DNA from: Candidatus Magasanikiibacteriota bacterium
GTDB lineage: Bacteria; Patescibacteriota; Patescibacteriia; Magasanikbacterales; UBA922
Length of the DNA stretch: 41,577 nt
Direction of reading: 5' to 3'
Assembly: GCA_018061685.1 (NCBI GenBank)
Contig: JAGOTR010000001.1
Span: 1-41,577, forward strand
Shown: positions 14,886 to 29,894 of the stretch, piece by piece
Layout of the letters: the number at the start of each line of letters is the position of its first letter
Numbering within the stretch: position 1 is the first letter of the stretch
Notes under the pieces: model-generated
Database searches by the model: none
What the model was told of the DNA's origin: nothing
The model's input: the letters and a program-made list of their open reading frames with translations, nothing else
Program-made: the position numbers and the translations under genes

Positions 14886-15326
14886 TTATACTCCTTCGTG
14901 AATATGAATGGTTTTACCTTTTGGTAATACCACAATTGCTTTTTTCCAATCTTTTCTTTTTCCACTTGATCGTCCAAATCGAGCAATTTTTCCTTCTACA
15001 TTGATCATGTTGACAGCGATTGGCTGTACACCATACACCGCAAGAATTGCTCGTTTTACTTGTAATTTTGTGGCAGAAATTCGCACGGCAAAGGTATATT
15101 GACCTTTTGATTCTTGTCGTGCTGTTTTTTCACTTGTCACTGGTTTTACCAAGACACTTCCACCGACACGATACGTTTGCTTTTCTGGAGTTACGGCAGC
15201 ATCTTTCTTTGTTTTTTTTGCTGCGTTTTTTTTGGGAGCAACAACAGCCTCGTGATCATGGTCATGATCGTGGTCGTGGTCGTGGTCAGTTGATGGATTT
15301 TTTTTCATTTTATCAAGTAATCCCAT
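14886..15326 (-). CDS. rplW: 50S ribosomal protein uL23 with His-Asp repeat extension
   Basis: 146 residues; the uL23 core starts at about residue 55 (VLVKPVTSEKTA) and runs through YTFAVRISATKLQVKRAILAVYGV to KKAIVVLPKGKTIHIHEGV. Before it lies an extra ~50 residues: residues 14-25 are six Asp-His pairs (with HE after), followed by an Ala/Lys-rich linker. Alternating His/Asp tracts bind divalent metals in other proteins; here that is only a suggestion. It lies 4 bases past rplD. Confidence 0.95.
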   Translation of the reverse strand: MGLLDKMKKNPSTDHDHDHDHDHDHEAVVAPKKNAAKKTKKDAAVTPEKQTYRVGGSVLVKPVTSEKTARQESKGQYTFAVRISATKLQVKRAILAVYGVQPIAVNMINVEGKIARFGRSSGKRKDWKKAIVVLPKGKTIHIHEGV

Positions 15327-28474: not shown

Positions 28475-28509
28475 AAAAAACCATCCCGACTGAGTCGGGA
28501 TGGTTTTTT
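28475..28509 (+). terminator. Terminator of rpmB
   Basis: A 16-pair perfect stem (AAAAAACCATCCCGAC / GTCGGGATGGTTTTTT) with the loop TGA, starting 7 bases past the stop codon. Confidence 0.92.
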
Positions 28510-28580
28510 GTTTCCCTAATTCCCCAAAAAACGTGATCAAAATTTATTTGGGAATTAGGGATTAGGAAATAGGAATTTGG

Positions 28581-28604
28581 AACCTGCCTGCCGGCAGGCA
28601 GGTT
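28581..28604. repeat. GC-rich palindrome, isolated copy
   Basis: AACCTGCCTGCCGG and its mirror form a 24-base perfect palindrome with the same core as 2747-2766. It overlaps the stop codon of the 28603 gene and follows word-like repeats of TTAGGAATTAGG type. Confidence 0.8.
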
Positions 28605-28920
28605 AGAGGTGAAACCTCATGCCCTCAATCACCGCATGTATCCGTGCAGCCTCGCGCTCCACCGCCTCGCCCTCGTACTCACCGGCGTGCATAGATGTGC
28701 CACTATAGCTAGCTTGTTTTTGATCTAAATGCAAATTCACGTCAAACCCTACGTCTTTCATTTCTACATACGCATGAAAGCGCGGATAAAATACGCTGGG
28801 GCGGAGTGTGCGAACATAACTGACCTTTCTTGTTCGAGGATCTACAAACTCATGATACCCCGCCTTTCGGAGGAGTTGCTTTGGAATCATTTGGTATTGG
28901 TTTGAAAATGGTATAATCAT
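28603..28920 (-). CDS. Conserved-type hypothetical protein (105 aa)
   Basis: 105 residues starting MIIPFSNQYQMIPKQLLRKAG; the frame also opens 12 codons earlier at a GTG (28956), but that region overlaps the divergent promoter. The middle (YHEFVDPRTRKVSYVRTLRPSVFYPRFHAYVEM) and the segment DVNLHLDQKQASYSG look well folded; the end is a charged helix (GEAVEREAARIHAVIEG). AT-rich codon use is like the core genes. No function can be assigned. Confidence 0.75.
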   Translation of the reverse strand: MIIPFSNQYQMIPKQLLRKAGYHEFVDPRTRKVSYVRTLRPSVFYPRFHAYVEMKDVGFDVNLHLDQKQASYSGTSMHAGEYEGEAVEREAARIHAVIEGMRFHL

Positions 28921-28934
28921 ATCCACAGCTATGG

Positions 28935-28964
28935 TTGACAGAATCAATACTATCACTCTATAGT
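28935..28964 (+). promoter_or_regulatory. Promoter of the Thr-leader unit
   Basis: TTGACA (28935-28940), 18-base spacer, TATAGT (28959-28964). The start would be near 28971, ten bases before the leader peptide ATG. Confidence 0.8.
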
Positions 28965-28980
28965 GGATGAATCAAGCAAT

Positions 28981-29046
28981 ATGAATATACCATTTGTAAC
29001 AACTACCACCACTACCACTGTATTCACTGCCTCTTGGCTGGTGTAG
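28981..29046 (+). CDS. Thr-rich leader peptide (21 aa), putative attenuator
   Basis: An ORF of 21 codons: MNIPFV, seven consecutive Thr codons (ACA ACT ACC ACC ACT ACC ACT), then VFTASWLV and TAG. It has a consensus promoter before it and an intrinsic terminator 22 bases after it. No Shine-Dalgarno site precedes it, as for most core genes here. Eight Thr in 21 residues recalls the thr operon leader of enterobacteria. The Thr codon stretch (AACTACCACC, 29001-29010) can pair with GGTGTAGTT at the leader end, the protector pairing of classical attenuators. Confidence 0.65.
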   Translation: MNIPFVTTTTTTTVFTASWLV

Positions 29047-29097
29047 TTCTTGTATCAACACGATGCACAAACCACCCGCCGAAGAGGCGGGTGGTTT
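29036..29097 (+). promoter_or_regulatory. Transcription attenuator (antiterminator/terminator) of the Thr unit
   Basis: The terminator is AAACCACCCGCC (29069-29080) / GGCGGGTGGTTT (29086-29097), loop GAAGA, then TTATATAT. The alternative pairing is GGCTGGTG (29036-29043, the last leader codons) with CACCCGCC (29073-29080), seven of eight pairs. A ribosome stalled on the Thr codons would leave 29036-29043 free and favour antitermination; one reaching the stop codon would cover it. Confidence 0.65.
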
Positions 29098-29171
29098 TAT
29101 ATATACAAAGTACTGTACCTTGACTGCCGCGCGAGATTCTCAACCCTTGTTGCGTGGCTGAAAGGTGGAGT

Positions 29172-29414
29172 ATGGCAACGCCTCGATTCAATGGCAATTC
29201 ATGCCTTTCTGTGGGGGGAAATCCCTCTTCGGAATTTGCCGAATACGCACCGGCGCAAGCAGATTTGCGTGAGTGGAACCAAGCAAATCCCAGCCTCACA
29301 AAGGGCCAATTTGAAGCCACGTTCAAGGAGATCTGCGAACGGCGGAACCTCACCACCCACAACAACGCGTTCAAAGCCGCGTGGGAGGAGCTTTGGGAGG
29401 AATTGCACAGCTAA
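29172..29414 (+). CDS. GC-rich small protein under Thr attenuator (80 aa)
   Basis: 80 residues. ATG 29172 is preceded by AAAGGTGG at good spacing; a GTG six codons upstream is in frame but lacks a site. The N-terminus is low in charge (MATPRFNGNSCLSVGGNPSS); the rest is a likely helical, amphipathic domain with repeated Trp (DLREWNQANP, LTKGQFEATFKEICERRNL, AFKAAWEELWEELHS). No family recognised. Visibly GC-richer than flanking genes. It is the only gene downstream of the Thr attenuator and is followed by a hairpin at 29428. Confidence 0.7.
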   Translation: MATPRFNGNSCLSVGGNPSSEFAEYAPAQADLREWNQANPSLTKGQFEATFKEICERRNLTTHNNAFKAAWEELWEELHS

Positions 29415-29427
29415 ACACAGCCAGAGA

Positions 29428-29468
29428 GAACGGCAGTACACTTCCGGGGGAAGTCACTGCTGCCGTTC
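29428..29468 (+). terminator. Hairpin after the Thr-controlled gene
   Basis: GAACGGCAG/CTGCCGTTC outer and ACTTCC/GGAAGT inner pairs, 13 bases past the stop codon. There is no immediate T run, so termination would be weak; processing or 3'-end stabilisation is possible. Confidence 0.5.
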
Positions 29469-29531
29469 GCTCCCCCTACTTATATAGATATTCCTCTTTT
29501 TGGAGGATTTTTTTTATATAAACGTCACAAA

Positions 29532-29894
29532 TCATTCTCTTTGCAACATACTACGAATCAATCCTGAAAGCATTTTGGCGATACTACAAAGCAAATCATA
29601 TAACGCACTAAACAAATCTTCAGAAATATATTGCTCAATTTTTAAAATTCGTAATAATGCTACACATTCGTTTACCGAACCCTTAGCTATTATATAAAAA
29701 TTCTTTTTATCGTTTTTACTATATTTTCCAGAACCCTCAGCAATATTTAAAACGATGCTCAGTGCCGCTCGTTTTAGTTGATCTTGTATATGCTTTTCTA
29801 TTTTTTTATTTTTAAAAATTTGTATAACATGAACATAAAATTCTTCCGATTTTTGATACACCGGAAATTTCTCAAATTGAAATTCATTTGTCAT
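29532..29894 (-). CDS. Four-helix bundle protein (23S-intervening-sequence type)
   Basis: 120 residues of the small four-helix bundle family first found inside 23S rRNA intervening sequences and now common as free genes. The family core is clear: FEKFPVYQKSEEFYVHV, QLKRAALSIVLNIAEGSGKYS and the NFYIIAKGSVNECVALLRI helix. The start ATG at 29894 has GGGAGGG eight bases before it, better than the upstream in-frame codon. Its biochemical role is unknown. It is not located in an rRNA gene here. Confidence 0.88.
   Translation of the reverse strand: MTNEFQFEKFPVYQKSEEFYVHVIQIFKNKKIEKHIQDQLKRAALSIVLNIAEGSGKYSKNDKKNFYIIAKGSVNECVALLRILKIEQYISEDLFSALYDLLCSIAKMLSGLIRSMLQRE

Follow-up and report, generated by a model that had tools for sequence, protein, structure and literature searches.

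A stretch of patescibacterial DNA very probably carries a threonine-codon, ribosome-mediated transcription attenuator, predicted to sense the supply of threonyl-tRNA. The window, that is the whole stretch of 41,577 nucleotides that was analysed, is part of a 71-kb contig in an assembly of 851 kb (89.5% complete). The locus is a single plus-strand transcription unit between two minus-strand genes, and consists of a promoter, a leader ORF, a terminator, an ORF of 80 amino acids (the 80-aa ORF) and a final terminator (Table 1).

Table 1. Features of the attenuator locus and its transcription unit, in window coordinates
Feature	Position	Strand	Details
Sigma-70 type promoter, TTGACA-18-TATAGT	28935-28964	+	11/12 match to consensus
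Leader peptide ORF, MNIPFVTTTTTTTVFTASWLV	28981-29046	+	21 codons (28981-29043) and stop TAG (29044-29046)
Seven consecutive Thr codons, ACA ACT ACC ACC ACT ACC ACT	28999-29019	+	Proposed sensor, also arm 1
Arm 2, GCCTCTTGGCTGGTGTAGTT	29029-29048	+	Antiterminator strand, overlaps leader stop codon
Intrinsic terminator (arms 3 and 4)	29069-29097	+	12 perfect pairs, T-rich tail TTTTATATATA
Second hairpin, over ribosome-binding site and ATG of the 80-aa ORF	29110-29174	+	-29.8 kcal/mol, z -4.4, 0/200 shuffles
80-aa orphan ORF, candidate controlled gene	29172-29414	+	Predicted three-helix domain
Hairpin between stop codon of the 80-aa ORF and final terminator	29424-29472	+	Inverted repeat I3; region z -4.8
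Final intrinsic terminator of the transcript	29492-29507	+	

All parts of the layout described in an earlier note on this DNA were present, including the promoter and the 21-codon ORF with seven Thr codons in a row, and the case for it is stronger than was claimed there; the position of the leader stop codon had to be corrected, to that given in Table 1. The locus combines a promoter with a short translatable ORF in which codons for a single amino acid are clustered, as is expected of an attenuator. Judging by the spacing of the promoter, transcription would start near 28971, leaving the leader ORF an expected 5' untranslated leader of ~10 nt, with no clear Shine-Dalgarno sequence. The Thr run is the only ACN x7 run in the assembly, and a control pattern, read backward, was found 0 times.

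The terminator claimed in the earlier note was borne out, with a folding energy of -23.4 kcal/mol, and it stands just 3' of the leader stop codon. Its weak point is the tail, TTTTATATATA, in which the U tract is interrupted, and a consensus scan did not list it. A second structure, the antiterminator, is formed when GCCUCUUGGCUGGUGUAGUU (29029-29048) pairs with AACCACCCGCCGAAGAGGC (29070-29088) at -22.0 kcal/mol, and the two are mutually exclusive. The alternative pairing noted previously, GGCTGGTG (8 nt, one mismatch), is real, but it is only the core of this longer helix. When the RNA lying between Thr run and terminator was shuffled, the strength of the antiterminator was matched by 1 of 1000 dinucleotide shuffles (z -4.0), placing it above chance. 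The same calculation applied to a positive control, Escherichia coli thrL, gave -23.4, z -4.0 and 1/1000, while 180 ordinary terminators from the loci fetched for comparison gave a mean z of -0.06 (sd 1.03), with 1.1% at z ≤ -3. The remaining pairing that had been proposed, between the Thr codons and GGTGTAGTT, appears when the free RNA is folded to minimum energy, and the leader as a whole folds at z -4.9.

These values also bear on a simpler reading of the locus. Promoter, leader ORF and terminator make up a complete unit on their own, and could represent a free-standing gene for a small protein, with the 80-aa ORF read from elsewhere or never. This is extremely unlikely, as the antiterminator would then be a product of chance, both in the window and among the related loci described below (z ≤ -3 in 10 of 14, against the 1.1% of ordinary terminators), and a promoter scan found no promoter-like site on the plus strand between 29097 and the 80-aa ORF.

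The earlier note had suggested folding the leader in both of its states, and this was done with constrained folds, in which the RNA was masked up to the edge of a modelled ribosome (assumed footprint 14-15 nt, counted from the A-site codon's first base). For ribosomes placed on Thr1 to Thr5, the best structure was the antiterminator until the RNA reached 29092, a point at which the terminator's last arm is still incomplete; with the ribosome on Thr5 it was still best after this point, and with the ribosome on Thr7 it was not obtained. When the ribosome was placed at the leader stop, only the terminator could form, and with no ribosome the Thr codons paired with arm 2 and the terminator formed. 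The geometry is that of an attenuator, a ribosome at the stop codon masking arm 2 and one on the regulatory codons leaving it free, and the two states switched as had been anticipated. At equilibrium, the full-length RNA preferred the terminator at most stall positions, which means that antitermination depends on the order of folding.

The mechanism proposed for the attenuator runs as follows. RNA polymerase would start near 28971, and a ribosome would load on the near-5'-terminal AUG at 28981. If Thr-tRNA is ample, the ribosome would reach the stop codon at 29044 and cover arm 2, allowing the terminator to form and transcription to stop. If Thr-tRNA is scarce, the ribosome would stall on the Thr run and leave arm 2 free to pair with the terminator's loop and 5' arm once these emerge, resulting in read-through into the 80-aa ORF. 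If there is no translation at all, arm 1 would pair with arm 2, making termination the default.

No orthologue of the locus was found among relatives, so that the site offers no base-pair covariation, and the leader ORF is without a homologue by sequence. Since neither the leader nor the 80-aa ORF has a sequence homologue, related loci were sought by architecture, using a pattern of ATGA and, shortly after it, five or six ACN codons. The search covered 780 genomes of Patescibacteria (86 of the same order, plus samples of the class and phylum), and the family was searched separately for ACN x6 anywhere. Matches were retained if they formed a short in-frame ORF whose stop codon was followed, 15-45 nt later, by a terminator. 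The fetched loci held 36 distinct short Thr-run ORFs, 13 of which passed and 23 of which were without a terminator of comparable score (22-38 in passing loci versus 17 or less in the rest). Addition of G507, a near-duplicate of G494, brought the total to 14 loci, window included. Besides the window there are at least 13 further loci of attenuator architecture, a lower bound given that only ATGA starts were covered and that candidates from the two largest listings were picked by eye. Among the pattern matches set aside, L102, L106 and L108 were parts of coding genes, as were L009 (Leu run) and L042 (Phe run), which had appeared leader-like in a crude scan; L128, L131, L142, L156, L164, L170 and others were rejected as attenuators for want of a terminator.

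The 14 loci share a consistent arrangement. In every one the terminator follows the leader stop codon by 25-38 nt, and an antiterminator is present with z between -1.5 and -7.0 (z ≤ -3.0 in ten), giving a combined P of about 4e-19 in which the near-duplicate pairs G494/G507 and G380/G394 are counted as independent. The arms of most loci are unlike one another in sequence, and thus it is the pairing that recurs, not the sequence. The best promoter match placed the expected start within ~12 nt of the leader ATG throughout (predicted 5' leaders of ~0-12 nt), although at G380 the best-scoring -10 element lies so near that the start falls at or just past the ATG. Most of these predicted promoters carry TTGACA or TTGACN at -35. 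Within the family, such a leader occurred in 3 of 46 genomes, each time before a different gene. The outcome of the search for conservation of the leader, as advised in the earlier note, was therefore divided: the architecture recurs in related genomes with unrelated sequence, but this particular locus is not conserved. That the same kind of switch is found in distant relatives, including before threonine genes, supports attenuation of the thr type, the reading first put forward in the earlier note, as do the significant antiterminator and the correct switching in the constrained folds.

The genes behind the related leaders are in part threonine genes. The leader precedes thrS in G658 and G771, an aspartokinase gene in G126, G380 and G394, and a gene for a ThrA-type protein in G494 and G507, the targets of G380 and G507 having been assigned by sequence identity to their near-duplicates. 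This means that seven of the 14 leaders stand before thrS or aspartokinase/ThrA genes, the targets expected of a threonine sensor. Two genomes of the same family as the window genome have, behind the leader, a SerB-like HAD phosphatase (G020) and a protein weakly like glutamate-cysteine ligase (G024), and a third genome, of the same order (G075), has a SLOG/TIGR00725 protein; the SLOG/TIGR00725 and glutamate-cysteine-ligase-like targets have no known link to threonine. In G226 and G305 the leader is followed by ORFs of 57 and 62 aa, respectively, and in G618 by a 60-aa ORF and then pheS. Three or four small orphan ORFs among 14 targets is a notable number, in a small sample. Among the nearest relatives, no Thr run of five or more was found before thrS in 30 thrS loci, and the thrS of the window genome itself is a 235-codon fragment on a 12-kb stretch of another contig.

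Several of the fetched loci carried further details. Thr leaders of the same order were seen at L124 789-1328 (-) and L134 378-1346 (-), with SLOG/TIGR00725 and weakly glutamate-cysteine-ligase-like targets. At L103 1501-2915, a nine-Thr-codon leader with terminator and antiterminator precedes a 60-aa ORF and pheS, and the Phe synthetase gene may therefore be under the control of a Thr leader. A ThrA-type ORF lies behind the Thr leader at L104 1622-3040 and at L105 2-1423 (-), and since the family alignment of the L104 protein begins only at position 220, the N-terminal half of its aspartokinase domain seems to be missing.

That the ORF controlled in the window is without a threonine link, and that half of the related leaders have targets with no obvious tie to threonine, would also fit a leader that senses a translation inhibitor, be it a natural inhibitor of threonyl-tRNA synthetase (ThrRS) or a drug by which ribosomes are stalled on nascent chains containing Thr, and so turns on a protective small protein. 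Phenicols cause context-dependent stalling after Ala, Ser or Thr, and natural ThrRS inhibitors are known. Inhibitor sensing is nevertheless highly improbable: it sits poorly with the seven leaders before thrS or aspartokinase/ThrA genes, the run is pure Thr with no Ala or Ser, and the 80-aa protein matches no family of resistance factors. An inhibitor of ThrRS would, in any case, work via the same Thr-stalling step as the proposed sensor of threonyl-tRNA.

The 80-aa ORF is supported as the only good candidate for the controlled gene. The earlier note had described the target as a small protein of none of the usual kinds, neither biosynthetic nor a synthetase, and this description holds, as it is an orphan with no visible link to threonine and so lies outside the metabolism of the amino acid sensed. 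A target within that metabolism is usual for this class of attenuator, but is no part of the mechanism. Homologues of the ORF were absent from 59 whole genomes of relatives, genome contigs, viral contigs, phages and plasmids, no match was found in Pfam, NCBIfam, PHROGs, PADLOC or PDB, and fold searches with the protein gave none. A ribosome-binding site, AAAGG (29161-29165), lies 6 nt before the ATG at 29172. The codon-usage score of -0.157 falls between those of genes (0.21 +/- 0.13) and wrong frames (-0.41 +/- 0.18). AlphaFold2, run on the single sequence, gave a mean pLDDT of 76.6 and a pTM of 0.62, with three helices at pLDDT 83-91 over residues 21-80, as against 54.1 and 0.34 for an antisense ORF of equal length. 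This predicted fold, and its margin over the antisense ORF, argues for a real protein, and the ORF is probably translated.

The attenuator might instead be real but control a structured non-coding RNA (about 29110-29512), the 80-aa ORF being accidental. The region 29110-29512 does fold at z -3.95, and the ORF combines atypical codon usage (GC3 0.62 versus 0.32) with the lack of homologues. However, the excess structure belongs to the hairpins on either side of the ORF (z -4.4 and -4.8), the body of the ORF being no more structured than shuffles (z -0.95), and together with the pLDDT of the protein model this makes a non-coding product unlikely. The first of these hairpins, which was absent from the earlier note and encloses the start of the ORF, points either to a further layer of control, at translation, or to slow translation. 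The strong hairpin at 29424-29472 lacks its own T tract, and the region 29415-29512 folds at z -4.8.

The class of mechanism is already known, and is classical. A close comparison is the E. coli thrL / thr operon attenuator (Rfam RF00506, Thr_leader), which shares with the present locus a 21-codon, Thr-rich leader, a stop codon in or beside arm 2, a terminator that follows the stop by about 20-25 nt, and an antiterminator equally strong in the same test. The two differ in that the window leader has a pure Thr run, whereas that of thrL is mixed Thr/Ile, and in that the window leader is near-leaderless, has no clear Shine-Dalgarno sequence, and controls an orphan ORF rather than thrABC. The locus scored 19.0 bits against RF00506, with a gathering cut-off of 55, and is not a member of that family; below-cut-off matches to the Rfam families P9, Trp_leader and Thr_leader are taken as resemblance only. 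Mycobacteria are reported to have attenuators in which a leaderless leader ORF carries a poly-Cys run (Canestrari et al. 2020, doi 10.1111/mmi.14498); these are likewise short ORFs with a homopolymeric codon run that attenuate the genes behind them, with Cys in place of the Thr seen here. At the mycobacterial cys leaders, a survey from 2005 (PMC1262725) detected no terminator hairpin that was conserved, whereas terminator and antiterminator are clear at the window locus. Attenuators also occur before aminoacyl-tRNA synthetase genes, such as pheST, and trpS and leuS in Streptomyces (PMC1262725). These likewise place a regulatory-codon leader, terminator and antiterminator before a gene that is not biosynthetic, as do the two sibling loci before thrS, but the target in the window is not a synthetase. 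T-box riboswitches similarly antiterminate in response to uncharged tRNA, but are without a leader peptide, and no T-box match was found in 28500-29600 up to E 1, or in the window at gathering cut-offs.

What appears to be new is the occurrence of such attenuators in Patescibacteria, the near-leaderless leader ORFs found there, and targets without a threonine link. No description of leader-peptide attenuation in Patescibacteria (CPR) was found in the open-access literature, and subscription journals may hold one. Gene regulation in these bacteria has been little explored, and as the switch can be read from sequence alone, it provides a handle on orphan genes turned on by amino-acid shortage in host-dependent cells. 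It is also a natural inducible element for organisms without genetic tools, and its repeated placement before small orphan ORFs offers a concrete way to test whether starvation is linked to proteins of unknown function. A broader and tentative reading, which we would not favour as it stands, is that Patescibacteria use widespread but sporadic near-leaderless poly-Thr attenuators as a general starvation sensor, recruited beyond threonine genes to small orphan proteins, such that loss of the threonine supply (for example, when the host cell is lost) might turn on a response of lineage-specific proteins.

The surroundings of the unit provided some minor observations. Its left neighbour (28603-28920, minus strand, start at 28920) is divergent from it and specifies a conserved protein of ~105 aa without a Pfam or NCBIfam family, relatives of which were present in 42 of 78 genomes searched (own genome counted). 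The gene on the other flank, also on the minus strand, belongs to the 23S rRNA intervening-sequence protein family. A 17-nt inverted repeat (28906-28922 / 28979-28995) connects the start of the divergent gene with that of the leader ORF; no claim is made for it, because repeats of equal quality number 21 in half the window. Elsewhere in the window, an ORF among ribosomal protein genes (14886-15326, minus strand), probably uL23 by position and sequence, opens with an Asp-His repeat, MGLLDKMKKNPSTDHDHDHDHDHDHEAVV (about 15240-15290), an odd extension that is perhaps metal-binding.
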